Of a stretch of 24,017 nt of DNA, positions 3 to 24,017 are shown piece after piece. The DNA lies in the IMG/VR virus record IMGVR_UViG_3300007871_000054, positions 1-24,017 of that record; one strand, given 5' to 3'. Made by a program: the position numbers and the translations under genes. The DNA is from a virus. How positions within the stretch are numbered: the stretch's first letter is position 1; each line of letters begins with the position of its first letter. The notes below the pieces were generated by a model. That model saw only the letters and a program-made list of their open reading frames with translations. It ran no database searches and had not been told where the DNA came from.

Positions 3-3000
3 GTATACTCAATCGGGCAAAGAGAGTGGCAGGAGTGGGTAGCCAAGCGTCCTGAGTTAGTTCCTAGAACCGAGTGGGCTGAGGGTGTGGTCAAGCATCC
101 TGAGCTGGCTGGCGACCCTATGTATTGGGCTTACGAGTTTGCCTCAACCGCTCCTTTTATGATGGCGATAATGGGAACTACCGTAACCGTTGCTCTGGCT
201 ACTGGCAATCCAGCTTTGGGCATCGCTGCTGGTATGGCGATGGCTACGCCTCCGCAGGCTCAGGAAGCCTACGATGCACTTATAGCTCACGGAGCTACTG
301 AGGAGCAGGCTGGTCTGATGGCTCTCCCTATAGGCGTGCTAGTATCGGCTATTGAAGTAGCAGGGGACTTGCCTTACCTCAAGCAAGTGTTCCCTAGTAT
401 ATTTAAGATATTCTCTAAAGAGGTAACTGAGCAGATAGCCCAGAGGACTTTGCTCAGCCTGACCAAGAAAGGACTCATTACATTCGGCACGATTGAGATA
501 ACTGAGGCACTTGAGGAAGTAGCTCAACAGGCAGTTATGAACGCTGCTATCAGGGTCGTTGACGAGAACCAGAGCTACTTTGAGGGGTTAGGTGATGTGT
601 TTGCGAGAACTTTAATTGCCACCGCTCCTGTCGCCGTGTTCGGAGCTGTTTACGCTTCATTGCATCGGGTCAGCCCATCGGATATTGTGGGCAAGACCCC
701 CGACCAGTTGAAAGCTCTGGGATATGAGCAAGACCCTGAAACTGGCAACTGGTATGAGCCTGCTAAACTGCCATCTGATGTGGAGCAGAGAGCTAGGATA
801 GTTAAGGGTGTTATCCCCACGACACCAGCCGAAGCAGCTAGGATGGCTGCGGAGTTGGAGGCTGAACTTACTCCTCCTCCAAAGGCAAGGATACAGCCAC
901 CGAGAGTTCCGAAGAAACCAGCTCCGTCTGTGGTCTCACCTGCTGTTCCAGTAGCTCCTGCACCGCCAGCAAGAACGGCAGCAGGTAGGGTAGCCCAGAG
1001 GATTGAGATAGAGCCTAGCGATGTAGGTATAGCCGACAAGATTAAGAGGGGCTGGCATACCTTTCAGGTTAAGATGGTGGACGACCTCTACGCAATCAAG
1101 ATGTTTACTAAGGAAGCGGTTAAAGGTGGGATTGACCTACAAATAGAGCAAGACCCATACATAGCAGCTAGAATGATAAGGGGTATTATCGGCAAGGCGA
1201 ATGTCTTTATTGAGTATGGCACTCTGGGGAAGGTAACTTATAAAACTGTTAAAGGCAAGGCAGTCCCTAATTATACTGGCGAGTCTCTTGAGAGCATCCT
1301 CCACGTTGTCAAAGAGCCTAAGAAGTGGAGAGATTTCAGCACCTACCTTGTAGCTCGCAGGGCAGTAGAATTACACGGCAGGGAGATAGAAACTGGTATA
1401 ACATTGGAGGATGCTAGGGATACGGTAGCACAACTGTCTGGCGAAAATACATATTTCCCTGAGCTGGCAGATAGGCTCTATAAGTATCAGGATAACTTAC
1501 TCTCTTACGCTAGTGAAATGGGTCTGCTAAGCCCTGAGCTACTTGAAAAATTGAGGCAGTTCGGTGCTTATGTCCCATTCTACCGAGTCTATAATGAGCT
1601 GGCAGCTAAGGGCTTTATGGGTAAGAAGATGGCTAACATCGCTCAACCTATCAAGAGGATAAAAGGCTCAGAGCGTGAGATAGTCAATCCTCTTGAGAGT
1701 ATAGTCAAGAACACCTATGTATTGGTGAGTGCTGCCGAGAGAAACCAAGTTGGGATAATGATGGCAAATCTGGTAGACCAGAACCCAGAGCTTGCCGATA
1801 GGTTTGAGAGGGTTAAAACACCTATAGCCAAAGTAGCTAGAGTATCCGCAAAGGAGGTAGGTGTTGAGATTGAGGGGCTAACAGATGCGGAGAATGAGCA
1901 AGTCGTGGACATCTTCCGTCCATCGTTCTTTGTTCGTGGTGATGAGGTTACAGTTCTAATTGATGGTAGAAAGAGACATTTTAGGGTAGACCCAGACTTG
2001 CGTGATGCCCTGCTTAATCTGGATAGAGAGTCAATGGGTCTCATTGGCAAGTTCCTTTCCTATCCTGCTAAATGGCTGCGAGCTGGTGCTACTCTGAGTC
2101 CTGACTTTATGGTTCGCAATCCTGCCAGAGACCAACTAACTGCCTTTGTTTACTCTCTGTATAATTTCCTGCCTGCCGTAGATTTTATGAGAGGCGTGGC
2201 AAGTATTATACGGAGGGATGCTGATTACCAGATGTATCGTGCTTCTGGTGCTGAGCGTTCTATGTTGGTCTCAATGGACAGGCAATATCTTACCAAGTCC
2301 TTTAAGGAGGTCGTGGAGGGTCATAAGTTTACATCATATATCAAGCATCCTTTGGAGTTCTTTCAGATACTAAGCGAGCTAGGAGAGAAGGCTACTAGGC
2401 TTGGTGAGTTCAAGGCTGGCATAAGGCGTGGTGCTGTTCCCCTTGAAGCTGGCTACTCTGCTAGGAATGTGAGTTTGGACTTCGCACAAGCAGGGACTAC
2501 AGCTCACTCTATAAATAAATTGGCAGCCTTCTTTAATGCGAACCTGCGTGGTTGGTATCATATAATAAGCTCGTTCAAAGAGCAGCCAGTTAGAACATCA
2601 ATGAAGATATTTGTCGGCATAACTTTGCCGTCAATCTTGCTTTATTATGCTAACAGAGACGACCCACGCTGGAAAGAGATACCTCAATGGCAAAAGGATT
2701 TATTCTGGATTATCTTTGTTAAACCTCCGCCTGATAATTGGGATGAAATGACCGCAAAGGAAAAAGCCGAATGGATAAATGACCCTAACCTATTCAAGAC
2801 TGGTATTTACCGCATACCAAAACCTTTTGAGCTAGGCATTATATTTGGCTCTATCCCTGAAAGGTTTTTGGAATACTCAGATACAAAAGACCCTGACATT
2901 ATGAGAGACACCTTACTTGAGATAGTTGAGCAAGGTGCTCCTAATCCAGTGCCAACGGCTCTCATCCCTGTTTGGGAGTGGATAACTAATTACAGCTTCT

Positions 3001-5885
3001 TTATGAAAAGAAAAATCGTGCCTGCGAGTAGGGAGACAATGCCTCCTGAGCTTCAATATACTGGCTGGACTTCGCCGTTTTCCAAGAAGATAGGCGAATG
3101 GCTGAACATATCGCCAGCCAAGTTTGAGAATGTGGTAAGAGGCTGGACAGGTGGCTTAGGTGCTTATACTCTGGACATACTGAGTGCTATCTTGAAAGGC
3201 ACAGGCATCAGCCCAGACATACCAGAGCCATCGCCAACGCTGGCTGACATACCAGTATTAAAGGCTTTCGTAGTCCGCAATCCGTATGGCTCAGCAGGCG
3301 AGACGGTCAACCGCTTCTACGAGCTGTTAGAGGAATACCAAGAAGGCGAGAACTACCTCAAGGAAATGCTGTCGCTGGATGAGCAGGAGAAGTTTGAGAC
3401 CTACAAGGCAGCTCATCCAGAGCTATTGTTCTATTTTGACTTTGAGGGGGATACGTCTTACTCTGCCTCTGCACGGTATCTGAGGAGGGTCGCAAGAGAT
3501 TTATCTGAATTACGCCAGATGCAGGATGAGGTATACAAGTCCAAGACTATGACCCCAGAGGAGAAGCGATTAAAAATTGACGAGATAGACCAGCTCAAGA
3601 CAGAGGTAGCTCAAAGGGCTATGGACTTATTCTTAGGTGAAATCCCGATAGTAATGGAGCACGAACTAAGTAATGCTGAGGGTAGGCTAGGCGAAATCAT
3701 TGAGGGCGTGCCTGTGTTGTCGCTGGATGAGCCTGATATTTACGATATGCGAGAACTCAACACAGCATATGCAGGGCTATTGGAGGGAATTACTGCTGCC
3801 GACTTGGAGGGCAAGGCTGGTATACCAGATACAGTGTTCAACTGGTATGACAAGGAAGCCAGCGAGACGCTAGTGGGTGCTTATCCCAACACTTCAATCT
3901 ACAGGATTAACGCTGACCCAGAGAAAGGCACTACCTTTGAGGGATACTACCAGCAATGGCAAGAGCGTCAAAGGATAACCGACCCAGAGGAGTTAGCTGC
4001 ACACATCAAGCTGTATCCTAAAGCGTATCTGGGTAACTTAACGAAGCGACAGCTAGACCTTATCCGCAGGTATCACCGTGCCAGTGAAGATGAACAGGAG
4101 CGGATGCTCAAGGAGATACCAGAGCTTAGAGTCAATCCTAAACTTGATTGGCTGGTAGCCCACCCAGAGGATAACGCCAGATTAGCTCTCTGGGGGCAAG
4201 CCCCGATACTCACGATTGAAGCGTATAACGAGTTCAACAGGCTGGTCGCCGACCTTGATATACCCGATGATGCCGTTCCGTCCCTCACCTTACCTCCTGA
4301 GAAGTCAATAGAGACGCACTTCCTCTATGAGCAACTGGTAGCAGAGGGCAGGTCTAGCAGTTGGGAGGCTCAGCTTCTCAAGGCTAATGACCCAGACTAT
4401 TGTGAGTGGCGTGGCATTGAAGTCCCAGATGTGCCCACACCATCGCTTGAGCTGAAAACTACGCATAGGAAGCTCTACGATGCTTGGGATTTGGCTAAGG
4501 ATATTGAGGATTTGGAGCTGAGAGAGGCTGCTATAGAAAAGATAATGCTGACCGATGTCGGCGGTGGTCTACAGTTCAGGGACATTCTGAGGCAGGTGGA
4601 GGCGATTGAGGTCGGCACTAACGAAGTCCCTACTCCTGACAAGATAATCAACGCTTGGATTGACAGGGGCAAGGTGATAGATGAGTTCACCGCAGGCAGC
4701 TCCGAAGCTAAGATGTGGCTGGTAGATAATCTGGACGCTTACCGTTGGGCTTTGGAGAACGGAAAACTTACCGATGATGGAGGTCTGCCTGATAACGATG
4801 TCTATATCCTTGAGAATGGCAGGAGTGGGGTCAGGTGGAATATACCTGTCCTGAGCATCAACAGGACTTGGCGTGAGCAGGACACTTTTTATAACGTAGG
4901 TATACCTGAGAAATACGCTCACATCAGCAATGATGAGGAGAGGCTTCTGGGTATCAAGCGAGAGCGTGCTGCTTATCTTGAGGAGAATGAGGAATACAGG
5001 CTTGATAGGTGGAGGCGTGATGCCTACGGTGGCGTAGGAGCTGAGCCTGATTTCCTGCGGTTCACTCCCGAACAGGTAGAATTGTATGTCCAGTATTATG
5101 AACTACCGTCAGAGGGATACAGGCGAGAGAGATTTCTGCTTAACCATCCTGAGTTCGCTGAGGCTATGAATATCATTGAGGGCGTGGATACCCCGAAAGC
5201 TGAGGGCGTTCCTGTCGTCCAGTATGATGAGATTACCGAGCAGTATCAAGACCTGTTTGACATCTGGGATGCTTATGGTGATGAAAACGACACTGAATAC
5301 ATAGCCGACACGGAGGCTAGGGCGGAGCAAAGGTCAAAACTATTTTTGGGCACTTTAGGCAAGGAGTTCAAAGAGGCTCGCTTCCGCAGGAGTGCCTACA
5401 AATCCCTGATAGGGCACGAAGAACAAGTAGATAACTTCGTTGGTTACTACCTGATAATAGATGCTGGCAAACCAGACTATCAAGATGAGTGGTATGATGA
5501 TGATTGGTTCTTAATGGAGCATCCTCAGTTCCACGATACTATGCTCGCTCTGGGTATCTTTAAGAAACGCAGAAACTTTGAGAAAGTGCCGTCAAGAGAA
5601 GTATGGCAGCTCTACCTGATATATCAGGAAACTCCGAAGGGTGAGCCTAGATATGAAATGAGGGTTAAGTATCCTGAGCTGGACGCTTGGCTGCTCATAA
5701 CAGGCAAGGTATCTAAGGGTGTTGAGCAGCGAGAAATGGATGCAGGTATGTCCGATGCGGAGAGGGCTGCCAGAGCTGCTGCTCAGGAGGCTGCGGAACG
5801 TAGAGCTAAGTGGGCTGGATACGAGGAGCAGTCCGCAGAGCTGGACGAAATCTTACGGTTATGGAGGGAGCGTATGTTAAGATAG
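3..5885 (+). CDS. Large polyvalent virion protein with LPD38-like region, 5'-truncated
   Basis: The frame is open from the first bases of the window, so the GTG at 87 is internal and the N-terminus is missing; 1932 residues follow it. Counting from 87: hydrophobic Gly/Ala-rich helices at about 15-205, a Pro-rich linker at about 260-305, then a helical region. At about 655-960 the protein looks like the large polyvalent protein-associated domain LPD38: 'SPDFMVRNPARDQLTAF' near 671, 'TLPSILLYYANRDDPRW' near 845, 'RIPKPFELGIIFGSIPER' near 910. The acidic helical C-terminal half repeats short elements of the type [H/Y/N]P[E/Q/K][F/L], for example HPELL, HPEFAEA, HPQFHDT and YPELDAW. Such giant proteins are known from phages, usually near portal and capsid genes, and are thought to be packaged and ejected with DNA; that role is inferred here. 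No protease or polymerase motif was recognised in this part. It precedes the scaffold-like and capsid genes. Confidence 0.8.
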   Translation, partial: VYSIGQREWQEWVAKRPELVPRTEWAEGVVKHPELAGDPMYWAYEFASTAPFMMAIMGTTVTVALATGNPALGIAAGMAMATPPQAQEAYDALIAHGATEEQAGLMALPIGVLVSAIEVAGDLPYLKQVFPSIFKIFSKEVTEQIAQRTLLSLTKKGLITFGTIEITEALEEVAQQAVMNAAIRVVDENQSYFEGLGDVFARTLIATAPVAVFGAVYASLHRVSPSDIVGKTPDQLKALGYEQDPETGNWYEPAKLPSDVEQRARIVKGVIPTTPAEAARMAAELEAELTPPPKARIQPPRVPKKPAPSVVSPAVPVAPAPPARTAAGRVAQRIEIEPSDVGIADKIKRGWHTFQVKMVDDLYAIKMFTKEAVKGGIDLQIEQDPYIAARMIRGIIGKANVFIEYGTLGKVTYKTVKGKAVPNYTGESLESILHVVKEPKKWRDFSTYLVARRAVELHGREIETGITLEDARDTVAQLSGENTYFPELADRLYKYQDNLLSYASEMGLLSPELLEKLRQFGAYVPFYRVYNELAAKGFMGKKMANIAQPIKRIKGSEREIVNPLESIVKNTYVLVSAAERNQVGIMMANLVDQNPELADRFERVKTPIAKVARVSAKEVGVEIEGLTDAENEQVVDIFRPSFFVRGDEVTVLIDGRKRHFRVDPDLRDALLNLDRESMGLIGKFLSYPAKWLRAGATLSPDFMVRNPARDQLTAFVYSLYNFLPAVDFMRGVASIIRRDADYQMYRASGAERSMLVSMDRQYLTKSFKEVVEGHKFTSYIKHPLEFFQILSELGEKATRLGEFKAGIRRGAVPLEAGYSARNVSLDFAQAGTTAHSINKLAAFFNANLRGWYHIISSFKEQPVRTSMKIFVGITLPSILLYYANRDDPRWKEIPQWQKDLFWIIFVKPPPDNWDEMTAKEKAEWINDPNLFKTGIYRIPKPFELGIIFGSIPERFLEYSDTKDPDIMRDTLLEIVEQGAPNPVPTALIPVWEWITNYSFFMKRKIVPASRETMPPELQYTGWTSPFSKKIGEWLNISPAKFENVVRGWTGGLGAYTLDILSAILKGTGISPDIPEPSPTLADIPVLKAFVVRNPYGSAGETVNRFYELLEEYQEGENYLKEMLSLDEQEKFETYKAAHPELLFYFDFEGDTSYSASARYLRRVARDLSELRQMQDEVYKSKTMTPEEKRLKIDEIDQLKTEVAQRAMDLFLGEIPIVMEHELSNAEGRLGEIIEGVPVLSLDEPDIYDMRELNTAYAGLLEGITAADLEGKAGIPDTVFNWYDKEASETLVGAYPNTSIYRINADPEKGTTFEGYYQQWQERQRITDPEELAAHIKLYPKAYLGNLTKRQLDLIRRYHRASEDEQERMLKEIPELRVNPKLDWLVAHPEDNARLALWGQAPILTIEAYNEFNRLVADLDIPDDAVPSLTLPPEKSIETHFLYEQLVAEGRSSSWEAQLLKANDPDYCEWRGIEVPDVPTPSLELKTTHRKLYDAWDLAKDIEDLELREAAIEKIMLTDVGGGLQFRDILRQVEAIEVGTNEVPTPDKIINAWIDRGKVIDEFTAGSSEAKMWLVDNLDAYRWALENGKLTDDGGLPDNDVYILENGRSGVRWNIPVLSINRTWREQDTFYNVGIPEKYAHISNDEERLLGIKRERAAYLEENEEYRLDRWRRDAYGGVGAEPDFLRFTPEQVELYVQYYELPSEGYRRERFLLNHPEFAEAMNIIEGVDTPKAEGVPVVQYDEITEQYQDLFDIWDAYGDENDTEYIADTEARAEQRSKLFLGTLGKEFKEARFRRSAYKSLIGHEEQVDNFVGYYLIIDAGKPDYQDEWYDDDWFLMEHPQFHDTMLALGIFKKRRNFEKVPSREVWQLYLIYQETPKGEPRYEMRVKYPELDAWLLITGKVSKGVEQREMDAGMSDAERAARAAAQEAAERRAKWAGYEEQSAELDEILRLWRERMLR

Positions 5886-18800: not shown

Positions 18801-19324
18801 AATTCTATATCCGACTCCACTTCGTTACCCCAACAATCCCAACCCTCTACCCTTTGTCGGGCAAAGAGTTCTATGCGTGGTAAATCTCCTGAGCATTTGA
18901 CAATTAGTTCTCTAAATAGGTCGGGCTTCTTTGAATGTCGCTCTCTATTGGCAGTAACATCTGTGCTTTGCCTTCTATCTAGTGTTCTTAATGAGCCACG
19001 AACCCCAAATAATAAGTGTTCAGTAGTGTTGCGAAAATAATAACCTATTCCTATTTGCGGTTTTACCCAAGTGATTATGTTCTTCAGGGTAAATCCCCAA
19101 CTCTCATAAACTCTCTTTCCCCAACCATTGCCTAATTGCTGGCTAGGTATCCACAAGTATAGGTGGCTATTCTCAGCAATGTAAGTTCGCAAGGGTATCC
19201 CCAAGTTACATATCTCAGTTATAGTCATAGTGGGATAATGAGAGGAAGCTCTACTATTCTGGCGTTCCCATAAACCCTTTAAGAATTCCCACGGCGGGTC
19301 AGCGTATATTATCGGATACCTCAT
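18797..19324 (-). CDS. MT-A70 family DNA N6-adenine methyltransferase
   Basis: 175 residues with AGGAGGT eight bases before its ATG. It opens 'MRYPIIYADPPWEF', carrying the DPPW catalytic motif (D9-W12) of MT-A70-type enzymes, which methylate adenine N6 using S-adenosylmethionine. Then 'SSHYPTMTITEICNLGIP', 'HLYLWIPSQQLG' and 'NIITWVKPQIGIGYYFRN' follow, and the cofactor-side end 'HSKKPDLFRELIV' with 'RIELFARQRVEGWDCWGNE'. Length suits phage members of the family. No restriction gene lies beside it, so it is an orphan that may guard phage DNA or regulate. Overlaps the preceding 90-residue gene by 26 bases. Confidence 0.9.
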   Translation of the reverse strand: MRYPIIYADPPWEFLKGLWERQNSRASSHYPTMTITEICNLGIPLRTYIAENSHLYLWIPSQQLGNGWGKRVYESWGFTLKNIITWVKPQIGIGYYFRNTTEHLLFGVRGSLRTLDRRQSTDVTANRERHSKKPDLFRELIVKCSGDLPRIELFARQRVEGWDCWGNEVESDIEL

Positions 19325-19571
19325 TTCTCACTACCTCCTGAAAGTCTTTTATCGGTATTACCCTTAGCCTAGTCCCCTTAGTTACCTGAACAGGATAGGT
19401 CATAGCTTTAGCTGTCGCCATTCGGTAAAGGTGGGGGTAGACCCTCCGACCACTCTTATCCTTGTAGAGAATATCAACCTCAATAACAGCATCGTTCATT
19501 CTCCACTCAGCCACACCTACCTTCTGATGCCCCCATATCGGCTTCTCTATGTTAATCCTGTTTACACCCAT
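19299..19571 (-). CDS. Hypothetical small protein, 90 aa
   Basis: The frame is open further upstream, but the ATG at 19571 is chosen: it has AGGAG seven to eight bases before it, and the upstream part is occupied by two other coupled genes. The product is one compact beta-rich domain with basic residues: 'INIEKPIWGHQKVGVAEWRM', 'VIEVDILYKDKSGRRVYPHL', 'LRVIPIKDFQEVV'. This looks conserved in style (alternating hydrophobic strands, KSGRRVYP turn) but I recognise no family. It overlaps the membrane gene before it by ten bases and the methyltransferase after it by 26. Confidence 0.7.
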   Translation of the reverse strand: MGVNRINIEKPIWGHQKVGVAEWRMNDAVIEVDILYKDKSGRRVYPHLYRMATAKAMTYPVQVTKGTRLRVIPIKDFQEVVRNEVSDNIR

Positions 19572-21115: not shown

Positions 21116-21528
21116 TTCAATATCTCCTCTATCTCATCCCTCTGGCTAGGTCGCCAGATGTAGACTTCGGGTATAGTCAATGAGTCCATCAGACCTTTTA
21201 ATTCTAGCGATGCTTCCCGACCCACTACTATCATAGGCTCAAGTAAGATAACTTTCTGACACGCTTCTAAGGTATCAAACCAGAGCTGCTGGTCTGGGCT
21301 TACCTTGCCTGTCTCGCTCTTGAGTTCCGCAAAGATGAGGCGTTGCTTTACTTCGTGGGCTATCGTGTAATCAAGGTAGCCCTTGTGTCCAGTGTAGGCA
21401 GTCTCGTATACGTCCTTACCACCACGCCTGACTCTGGCTGGTCGGGGGTGCATCCACCTGTAACCATAGGTATCAAGCAGCTCCTCAAACCAAGTGGCAA
21501 AGTCTTTCTCACTAATGGTCTGACCCAT
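21112..21528 (-). CDS. VRR-NUC domain nuclease, stand-alone
   Basis: The ATG at 21528 overlaps the loader stop (TGATG) with AGGAG six bases upstream; a GTG one codon earlier would be too close. 138 residues. The PD-(D/E)xK core is visible: E16/E17 in the first helix, D53 in 'GHKGYLDYT', E68 and K70 in 'IFAELKSETGKVS', Q80/Q81 on the next helix. 'HPRPARV' is typical of phage members. VRR-NUC proteins cut branched DNA; single-domain phage forms act as structure-specific or Holliday junction-type nucleases. Possible roles: resolving replication or packaging intermediates. Confidence 0.85.
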   Translation of the reverse strand: MGQTISEKDFATWFEELLDTYGYRWMHPRPARVRRGGKDVYETAYTGHKGYLDYTIAHEVKQRLIFAELKSETGKVSPDQQLWFDTLEACQKVILLEPMIVVGREASLELKGLMDSLTIPEVYIWRPSQRDEIEEILK

Positions 21529-22355
21529 CACTTTCTCCTGTAGCTTTTACCGCTCATATTGATACGCTTGCCCTTAATCATTTCAGCGAAGCGGTCAAAG
21601 GATGCTTCCTCTAAGTGAGCCTTGAGACCATCAGCATCAAGGTTAGCCGTCAGTATTATAGGTAGCTCCGCTTTGTATCTACCGTCTATGATACCGAACA
21701 GAGTCCTTTGGATAAATCTGGGGTCTTGTCTCCGCTCCTTACCAACATCGTCCAGTAAGAGGAGGTCGCAATATGTGAGCTTTTTGATGATGTCGTCCTC
21801 AGACTCTCTCATCCGCTTCTCCTCTTGGTCAAAGCTATACGTTGCCTGTATACTCCTGAACAGGTCAGGCTCACTCACAAAGATTATGCGTGGGCAGCCA
21901 CGCTCCGCACCTTTCCAGTTGTCTAATATCCTGTGGGCTATGGCACAGCTAAGGTGAGTCTTGCCCACTCCATAGGTATCCTTTGAGTAGAGGTATAGCG
22001 ATGCAACGCCTGTCGGTCTCTTGTCGGTGGGAAAGTCGTTGGCATACTTCCAGCACTTGTTGAAGGCTGTATCCTGATAGCCCTTCTCAAAGTTACTAAA
22101 GTCCTTATTCATAAACAGTGGAGGTATACCACACTCTACCCTGCTCTTTCGCCTATCTCCCATAATCATTGCAGCTTGAGCAGCTTTCTCTTTGGCTATC
22201 TCATCATCGTAGGCTTTCTTGGCACAGTCTGGGCACAGACCACCCCCTCTCAGGATACGAGTGCCACTATGAGAACCCATATCAGTATCGGACACTCCCC
22301 AATACTTCGGCTCGTAGCCCCCACCACAGCTATTACATTTCAGAGTCTCGCTCAT
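21528..22355 (-). CDS. DnaC/IstB-like AAA+ helicase loader
   Basis: 275 residues, ATG overlapping the organiser stop (ATGA), GGAGG nearby. Residues 1-45: C7, C10, C41 and C44 form a likely zinc site ('CNSCGGGY', 'CPDC'). AAA+ core: Walker A at 126-133 ('DTYGVGKT'), with D126 where glycine is usual; Walker B at 198-203 ('LLLLDD'); sensor 1 near N238 ('ILTANLD'); box VII-like 'SFDRFAEM' with R255. A basic C-terminus ends 'SGKSYRRK'. These loaders place the hexameric DnaB-type helicase on DNA. As no helicase is visible here, it probably loads the host one. Works with the adjoining organiser. Confidence 0.9.
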   Translation of the reverse strand: MSETLKCNSCGGGYEPKYWGVSDTDMGSHSGTRILRGGGLCPDCAKKAYDDEIAKEKAAQAAMIMGDRRKSRVECGIPPLFMNKDFSNFEKGYQDTAFNKCWKYANDFPTDKRPTGVASLYLYSKDTYGVGKTHLSCAIAHRILDNWKGAERGCPRIIFVSEPDLFRSIQATYSFDQEEKRMRESEDDIIKKLTYCDLLLLDDVGKERRQDPRFIQRTLFGIIDGRYKAELPIILTANLDADGLKAHLEEASFDRFAEMIKGKRINMSGKSYRRK

Positions 22356-23089
22356 TCCTTATCCTCCACCAATCCCTGTTCATCACCACTCACTTCAACT
22401 GGTGGCTGCTTCTTAGCCCAAGCCTCTAGGCAGGTCTCAATATATTTTATAGGGCTATGGGCTTCGTGTATTTTTGCCTCCTCTACAGCCCTCTTGAAAT
22501 CAGCATCATCGTATGTGTCCAGTATGTCTTTCAGTGTATCAAACTCAAGGTTCTTTAACGGCTTACCAAAGGTCTCCTCAATTATCTTTACGGACTCCTG
22601 TAGTTTGGGGTCTAGCACTTCATCAAGCGGTGAGCTGGTTGCTGGTGGTGTCCCCCTCTTTTTCTTACCTGTCCCACCCCACATCTTGAGCAGGCTTTTG
22701 GGTGGGTTAGGAATATCAGAGTATCCGTATTTGCCTTTTGCTTCGTGGTCTTTGCGGAAGTTTATCTGCTCGCTTTCAAATCCAGCCATCCAGAGGCAAT
22801 GTATACCTTTGGCTGTATACCGCTCTATTAGCCCTAGTCCGTCCTCTCTCTTGGCTGCTTGTAAGGTGTTAAGCATAGAGTCTATCTGCTCGGTAGTCCA
22901 GTCCCTCTTAGGGAAGCATATACCCTTGAGAATAACAGGGTCTCCGTGTAGCCTGCCCTCAGCGTCTAGGTGTGGTATCATCATCAGGAAGCAGAGGAAG
23001 GTGGTATCGTCAAGGTCATTAACTTTAGGGTCAATGGCTATCTTTCTTGATACCATTCTGCCCCTGTTATAATATGTTCTTGTCGGCAC
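22352..23089 (-). CDS. Phage replisome organiser / DnaD-like replication initiator
   Basis: GTG start at 23089 with AAGGAG five bases upstream. 245 residues. N-terminal 1-125 is a winged-helix-like domain: 'RGRMVSRKIAIDPKVNDL', 'TTFLCFLMMIPHLDAEGRLH', 'LIERYTAKGIHCLWMAGFES', then 'QINFRKDHEAKGKYGY'. A basic Gly/Pro-rich linker (about 128-155) follows. The C-terminal part with 'NLEFDTLKDILDTYDDADFK' and 'SPIKYIETCLEAWAKK' resembles the C-terminal helical domain of DnaD/replisome organisers. Such proteins bind the origin and recruit the helicase loader, which is the next gene. An RNA structure lies just upstream of its ribosome site. Confidence 0.8.
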   Translation of the reverse strand: MPTRTYYNRGRMVSRKIAIDPKVNDLDDTTFLCFLMMIPHLDAEGRLHGDPVILKGICFPKRDWTTEQIDSMLNTLQAAKREDGLGLIERYTAKGIHCLWMAGFESEQINFRKDHEAKGKYGYSDIPNPPKSLLKMWGGTGKKKRGTPPATSSPLDEVLDPKLQESVKIIEETFGKPLKNLEFDTLKDILDTYDDADFKRAVEEAKIHEAHSPIKYIETCLEAWAKKQPPVEVSGDEQGLVEDKE

Positions 23090-23104
23090 TACTGCTCCTT
23101 AGAT

Positions 23105-23189
23105 GGGGGACTTGCTAGTAACTCTACCCACTTCTGGGACTGCATACACCAGCAAATCCCCCTACTTGCCAGCTCTCCACACTGGCAAG
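23105..23189 (-). ncRNA. Structured intergenic RNA (two stem-loops), possible cis-regulator or processing site
   Basis: Read as minus-strand RNA. Stem 1 starts right after the TAG of the 172-residue gene: CUUGCCAG pairs with CUGGCAAG (23189-23182 and 23172-23165), eight perfect pairs, loop of nine. Stem 2: GGGGGAUUUGCUGGUG (23162-23147) pairs with UACUAGCAAGUCCCCC (23120-23105): sixteen continuous pairs, of which three are U-G wobbles. On the plus strand those three become C-A mismatches, so the fold favours minus-strand transcription. A short inner hairpin CCCA-GAAG-UGGG sits in its loop. The ribosome site of the replication initiator follows four bases on. It lacks a U-tract. Confidence 0.55.
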
Positions 23190-23708
23190 CTATTTTTCTA
23201 TTAAGTCGGTTACGGCATTGACGACTTCAAGCCGTGCATCAATAACACTCGGCTCGCTCTGATACAGGTCTATCATCTTGTCTCTCTGCTCAGGGTCGTA
23301 GCAACGGACAATCTTAACATCAACAAGCTGCTCGGTGGACTGCTTCATTGTCCCCTCTTTCAATCCCCTGTCAGTGAGACCTTGATACATAGTGCACTCC
23401 TCACCAGCCAAGTCCCTGCGTCTGTGTATCCACTCAGCGATAGACTTCGTTACGTCTGAACCACCTGCACCTACAGCTATGGCGACCATAGTCTCTAGGT
23501 TGGTTCGCTGAATGGCAATACGGAGTCGCAGGATTTCCTTGAGAATGTCGGAGTGAGCCTGTATCCACCCTGCTACCTGTTTCGGCTGGTCTTTGTAGAC
23601 AGGGGTCTCAATGCTCAGGTGAGCGGAGTGCTTGGCTACCTTCTCTCGGAGGTCGTCAGCCTTTCTCTGCTCGTCTTTGATTTTTTTCAGTGCCTCAATT
23701 AGTTTCAT
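23190..23708 (-). CDS. Hypothetical early protein, 172 aa (possible DUF6847/septicolysin-like)
   Basis: First gene of the early operon; ATG with GGGAGAAAGG upstream. Residues 1-70 are a charged helical pair ('LIEALKKIKDEQRKADDLRE', 'DILKEILRLRIAIQRTNLE'), then a beta turn, then 'SIAEWIHRRRDLAG' near 90 and a helical/beta C-terminus ending 'VVNAVTDLIEK'. The order L-L-helix, I-x-R-T-N, a short strand pair, then A-x-x-x-R-R-D-L resembles the DUF6847 (septicolysin) family of phage proteins from memory; this is not a sure match and function is unknown. Its stop borders directly on the first stem of the RNA structure. Confidence 0.7.
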   Translation of the reverse strand: MKLIEALKKIKDEQRKADDLREKVAKHSAHLSIETPVYKDQPKQVAGWIQAHSDILKEILRLRIAIQRTNLETMVAIAVGAGGSDVTKSIAEWIHRRRDLAGEECTMYQGLTDRGLKEGTMKQSTEQLVDVKIVRCYDPEQRDKMIDLYQSEPSVIDARLEVVNAVTDLIEK

Positions 23709-23908: not shown

Positions 23909-23937
23909 TTAATATTCTGCTGATGTTCAGTCAGCAA
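23909..23937 (-). promoter_or_regulatory. Weak sigma70-type promoter candidate with dyad in spacer
   Basis: Minus strand: TTGCTG (23937-23932), 17-base spacer, TATTAA (23914-23909). Matches to consensus are three of six and four of six. The spacer region holds a dyad GCTGA/TCAGC (arms 23919-23923 and 23931-23935), as a repressor site could. It is the best spaced pair in the leader, but this is weak evidence. Confidence 0.25.
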
Positions 23938-23955: not shown

Positions 23956-24017
23956 CTGTCTCTTATACACATCTCCGAGCCCACGAGACCGTACTAGATC
24001 TCGTATGCCGTCTTCTG
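23956..24017 (+). other. Illumina Nextera adapter read-through (artefact)
   Basis: CTGTCTCTTATACACATCT (23956-23974) is the Tn5 mosaic end in its read-through form; CCGAGCCCACGAGAC (23975-23989) is the Nextera read-2 adapter; CGTACTAG (23990-23997) is an i7 index (the Nextera N702 read form); ATCTCGTATGCCGTCTTCTG (23998-24017) is the P7 end. The order is exact. These bases are not from the organism and should be trimmed. Confidence 0.99.

Follow-up and report, generated by a model that had tools for sequence, protein, structure and literature searches.

In an uncultured phage, the early polycistronic mRNA contains a structured segment that spans the distance from the stop codon of one gene to the ribosome-binding site of the replication initiator gene and is predicted to fold into two stable hairpins. 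This segment is probably a genuine RNA element with an effect on the expression of the replication genes, because a distant relative keeps the hairpins though its neighbouring gene is a different one. The role that we favour, although tentatively, is that of a cis-acting intercistronic RNA element by which the initiator is uncoupled from the gene before it and the replication mRNA is bounded or protected. Such an element is apparently undescribed and of a familiar kind, that is, an intercistronic cis-acting mRNA structure, apparently with no new class of mechanism behind it. Initiator dosing inside tightly packed phage operons can seldom be read from the sequence; in this phage, the sole break among overlapping genes is an RNA structure that is kept with the initiator while the preceding gene is exchanged, providing a compact case, in an uncultured phage group, in which RNA-level insulation or processing can be put to the test.

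The early-operon gap and its two hairpins

The stretch of DNA under investigation ("the window") is a linear, 24,017-base virus record from IMG/VR. Positions 23956–24017 are non-viral and represent Illumina Nextera adapter read-through, composed of CTGTCTCTTATACACATCTCCGAGCCCACGAGAC, then CGTACTAG, presumably the Nextera i7 index, and then ATCTCGTATGCCGTCTTCTG, with the true contig end lying near 23956. Since the contig stops ~250 nt upstream of the DUF6847 gene that precedes the initiator, with adapter beyond, the designation of this gene as the "first early gene" in the initial annotation is uncertain; in the relative G001, described below, additional genes lie ahead of the two-hairpin element. 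An inverted repeat, TGCTGA-N7-TCAGCA (23918–23936), lies in the untranslated sequence ahead of the DUF6847 gene and is possibly a repressor operator. At the opposite end of the window, a polyvalent protein with an LPD38 domain (87–5885, 1932 amino acids) is truncated by the window start; a related locus (L002) encodes a 2498-amino-acid version of it.

The features around the gap are the following:

23190–23708, minus strand: upstream gene, DUF6847 (PF20935), 172 amino acids; Pfam score 27.5 bits (cutoff 27)
23165–23189, minus strand: hairpin 1, CUUGCCAGU / GCUGGCAAG, 9 pairs, 7-nt loop GUGGAGA
23105–23162, minus strand: hairpin 2, GGGGGAUUUGCUGGU / ACUAGCAAGUCCCCC, 15 contiguous pairs, 28 nt between the arms
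23127–23138, minus strand: small inner stem CCCA-GAAG-UGGG within hairpin 2
23087–23100, minus strand: Shine-Dalgarno sequence AAGGAG (23095–23100) and GTG start of the initiator gene (23087–23089), read from the sequence
22352–23089, minus strand: replication initiator-like gene, 245 amino acids, DnaB_2/DnaD-type domain (Pfam PF07261, E 1.9e-6)
21528–22355: DnaC-like ATPase (Pfam), next after the initiator

By tblastn, the initiator gene matches phage DnaD and replication initiation proteins. The junction between the DUF6847 gene and the initiator is a 100-nt gap filled by the two hairpins, and all other early junctions that were checked overlap, as the initial annotation had maintained; nine junctions measured further along the operon have overlaps of 4–61 nt, and a small gene ending at 19299 has a possible start at 19571 that produces an overlap with both neighbours.

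On the minus strand, the order is UAG, CUUGCCAGU, GUGGAGA, GCUGGCAAG, UA, GGGGGAUUUGCUGGU, 28 nt, ACUAGCAAGUCCCCC, AUCU, AAGGAG, CAGUA, GUG. Hairpin 1 directly adjoins the UAG stop codon of the DUF6847 gene (23190–23192) and has eight Watson-Crick pairs and one U-G pair; in the computed fold, one base of the stop codon is drawn into a tenth pair. Only two bases (UA) separate it from hairpin 2, which has two G-U pairs among its 15 and contributes approximately −33 kcal/mol on its own. Just ahead of hairpin 1, the bases AUAGAAAAAUA are A/U-rich and mostly unpaired in the window, a lead-in that is absent in G001. From the end of hairpin 2, it is 4 nt to the Shine-Dalgarno sequence and 15 nt to the GTG; no hairpin arm covers the Shine-Dalgarno sequence, a part of which is paired in the window by a weak downstream fold. 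The coordinates, strand and structure of the initial annotation were right, including the position of the element just ahead of the ribosome site and the three wobbles (one U-G in hairpin 1, two G-U in hairpin 2) that pair in minus-strand RNA only; its pair counts of eight and sixteen are replaced here by 9 and 15.

The stability of the fold stands out against dinucleotide shuffles. The minus strand of 23080–23200 reaches −53.4 kcal/mol compared with a shuffled mean of −32.1 (z −6.5), with none of 200 shuffles folding as well, while the plus strand reaches −37.9 kcal/mol (z −3.65). Upon scanning 2386 overlapping 100-nt segments from both strands, the element ranked first both by energy (−51.3 kcal/mol, equalled by none of 500 shuffles) and by z (−7.2), the next-best non-overlapping segment having −40.6 kcal/mol. 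Both hairpins form in longer sequence contexts, too.

The element in G001 and the gaps of other related initiators

The relative G001 (IMGVR_UViG_3300032731_000205) was reached via its coat protein, which is 77% identical. Its initiator is 42–44% identical to that of the window and is preceded, at the same place, by UAGCUGCCAGUUUGGAGAGCUGGCAAGUAGGGGGGUUGCUGGU...AGCCAGCAAUCCCCCUAAAGGAAUAAGUUAUG, which form two matching hairpins. A covariance model built from the window sequence alone matched this element (L006, 10358–10476) with 40 bits and an E-value of 5e-6 over 423 kb, and found no further copy in 47 other loci or 30 whole records. In hairpin 1 of G001 (L006, from 10358), the pairs are unchanged but for one deleted base. 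Hairpin 2 differs in three substitutions, each on one side of a pair, and in the loss of one whole pair, with the helix unbroken in both phages (15/15 pairs in the window, 14/14 in G001) and the wobbles arising from these differences pairing in coding-strand RNA only; the sequence of the inner stem is not conserved. The G001 element folds with z −6.1, and none of 300 shuffles is as stable. Both stems have, thus, been retained with pair-preserving changes and shuffled sequences fold worse, which together support the strand-specific functional RNA that had been proposed initially.

The gap DNA is 69% identical between the two phages, compared to 52% for the following coding sequence, and includes an identical run of 22 nt, TGGAGAGCTGGCAAGTAGGGGG. 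The upstream gene is RecT-like in G001, as judged by reading the sequence, versus DUF6847 in the window, with the initiator constant; no homologue of the DUF6847 gene was found in the G001 record. No pair is substituted on both sides between window and G001, and two sequences cannot give formal covariation; this evidence is thin because exactly this element was found in only one relative. Exact peptide-pattern searches yielded no direct relatives, DNA-pattern scans gave no match with a spaced pattern and G001 only with a loop/arm pattern, and BLAST of the window gap against phages returned chance-level matches or none.

A scan of 30 records revealed seven more related initiators. Four of them (L073, L074, L076 and L077) have little or no gap upstream; hence, initiators of this type can do without the element. 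In G006 (L075), a gap of ~250 nt, different in sequence, carries a good sigma-70-like promoter as well as a hairpin that has a T-run and is terminator-like. This gap (L102, reverse complement ~4823–5074, equal to L075, reverse complement ~1242–1494), located before a distantly related initiator, contains the promoter-like TTGACA-17-TATAAT and two arms that pair over 12 bp, ACTTGGTAGTGG/CCACTACCAAGT, and cross the terminator-like hairpin GCCCCGA..TCGGGGC with its 8 T; by its sequence, the arrangement resembles an attenuator of the initiator with a pseudoknot.

The two remaining gaps are 238 nt long in G010 (L072/L078), from a RecT-like gene to the initiator, and 153 nt long in G029 (L071/L098), ahead of an HNH endonuclease gene that overlaps the initiator. 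Free-standing homing-endonuclease-like genes (HNH, LAGLIDADG) occur in and around the replication module of these relatives (L098, reverse complement 5093–5668; L078, 827–1540 and 5700–6617). Although their initiators are less than 50% identical, both phages carry in these gaps the same 27-nt run, GGGCTCGGTATCCACTCCGAGTGAACC (L078 2801–2827, L098 3995–4021 (minus)), which is not present in the window and did not turn up in any other of the 47 records searched. The run sits in a hairpin with two compensated lower-stem pairs; two-sided changes in 2 of the 13 pairs of this core hairpin are, however, not significant, as they were matched by 110 of 500 shuffles. As a whole, the two gaps are only marginally more stable than shuffles (z −2.6 in G029, −1.45 in G010), the window-derived model, even unfiltered, did not recognise either of them, and BLAST against phages, for G029 also against plasmids, gave chance-level matches or none. 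Since only the position and short words (ATAGCTTGC...GCAAGTAG, GGGGG) are shared, kinship to the window element is not claimed; a relationship of these gaps is only suggestive. The two gaps suggest that structured and conserved non-coding sequence tends to occupy the place ahead of this initiator, but they do not establish a single RNA family. In all four relatives read, the stable fold ends 14–17 nt ahead of the start codon.

Possible modes of action

We propose that the hairpins separate the expression of the replication genes from that of the preceding gene. Situated right behind the stop codon, the structure would impede terminating ribosomes from continuing into the initiator gene, which would leave this junction alone translationally uncoupled, the others being overlapping. 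Predicted structure immediately after a stop codon is known to correlate with lower translational coupling (PMC12548453). In addition, were the mRNA to be cleaved within or ahead of the gap, the hairpins could serve as the protected end of an initiator-dnaC mRNA, comparable to papB-papA. The Shine-Dalgarno sequence lies outside both hairpins. In papBA and malEFG, hairpins between cistrons shield one of the two sides of a cleaved mRNA and bound differentially decaying operon segments, and in papB-papA, RNase E cleavage occurs upstream of the intercistronic hairpin (PMC5927463). A stable intercistronic hairpin lacking a terminator U-tract is indeed a feature of the window gap.

With its fixed, very stable structure, which extends from at or near the upstream stop codon to 14–17 nt before the start, the element looks more like an insulator or boundary than a switch. 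A switch controlling initiator synthesis, as initially considered, is unlikely according to the folding models, because, in both phages, the sole plausible alternative pairing is less stable by some 25 kcal/mol, and the Shine-Dalgarno sequence is not covered by any hairpin arm. The alternative, which involves pairing among the similar arms (all YUUGCYRG/CYRGCAAR), yields −26.5 versus −51.3 kcal/mol in the window and −24.3 versus −50.6 in G001, and is still worse when the first 12 nt are occluded (−21.0 versus −38.3). A search for terminators and promoters in the window identified none above shuffle level; G001 has 5 terminator-like sites compared to 2.6 expected, none of them at the element on its strand.

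Further candidates were rejected individually. In the window and its relatives, all Rfam families (release 15) stayed below their gathering scores, low-threshold matches (miRNA, snoRNA, HCV stem-loop) were at chance level, and a tRNA/tmRNA scan found none. The putative DNA operator repeat TTGCYRG occurs 17 times in the window, with 15 expected. A leader peptide of 16 codons (23099–23149), starting with GTG behind AGGGGG within hairpin 2 and ending at the Shine-Dalgarno sequence of the initiator, has no G001 counterpart as judged by reading the sequence. For a CsrA site, the GGA in the loop of hairpin 1 is, by eye, devoid of the usual ANGGA context.

Cleavage of hairpin 2 by host RNase III, likewise proposed initially and splitting the mRNA of the upstream gene from the replication mRNA, is a conceivable though rather unlikely alternative to insulation. 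Intercistronic RNase III sites are used by phages such as T7, and hairpin 2 is a long, nearly unbroken helix of 15–18 pairs in an early operon, with a comparable helix of 14–16 pairs in G001. However, RNase III usually prefers two full helical turns, which hairpin 2 falls short of, and both the loop and the inner stem differ between the window and G001.

The gaps before the related initiators might also be gathered into an undescribed, fast-diverging phage leader-RNA family preceding DnaD-type initiators, with a two-hairpin form (window, G001) and a form built on an invariant 27-nt core hairpin, GGGCUCGGUAUCCACUCCGAGUGAACC (G010, G029), that would be read by a phage or host protein or a ligand and, in this way, set initiator dosage and hence replication timing; we regard this as quite unlikely.

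Action at the DNA level is very doubtful. The inverted repeats would then operate as folded single-stranded DNA, either at a replication start or as a recombination joint at a module border, for which their location next to the replication initiator, at a site where the upstream module differs between relatives, could be adduced. However, all arm wobbles counted in the window, G001 and G029 pair in coding-strand RNA and become A-C mismatches on the other strand, the coding strand is favoured by 12–16 kcal/mol in these three (not in G010), and arms as far as 102 nt apart speak against a double-stranded binding site.

Two nearly adjacent stem-loops close to the front of an early operon are also reminiscent of the HK022 put-type antiterminators, RNAs of ~70 nt with two stem-loops near the early promoters (PMC9378689), in which case the element would bind the elongating RNA polymerase, suppress termination by way of its beta' zinc-binding domain and cause read-through of the remaining early operon. 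This is highly improbable, given that no terminators above shuffle level were found in the operon, that the site folds quite differently in two relatives, and that the window model, run unfiltered against 18.7 kb of HK022, gave a best match at chance level (13.4 bits, E 0.12) in a stretch that may not include the put sites. Finally, a trans-acting small RNA, either excised from the operon mRNA or transcribed from the operon, also among the initial proposals, is most improbable in spite of the compact, very stable ~100-nt fold, considering that neither a promoter nor a terminator rises above shuffle level and that the element keeps to the leader position of the initiator.

Comparison with known RNA elements

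The element resembles HK022 putL and putR in having two almost adjacent stem-loops in an early phage transcript (PMC9378689), but differs from them in sequence and helix lengths as well as in following a gene and lying directly before a ribosome site. With the RNase III sites of T7 and lambda, it shares the intercistronic hairpin in an early operon, whereas its unbroken helix is shorter. The decay hairpins of papB-papA and malE-malF resemble it in being stable, free of a U-tract and placed between two genes of one mRNA, near a stop codon and the next ribosome site (PMC5927463); unlike those, the phage element consists of two hairpins which take up the gap completely and remain associated with the gene downstream.
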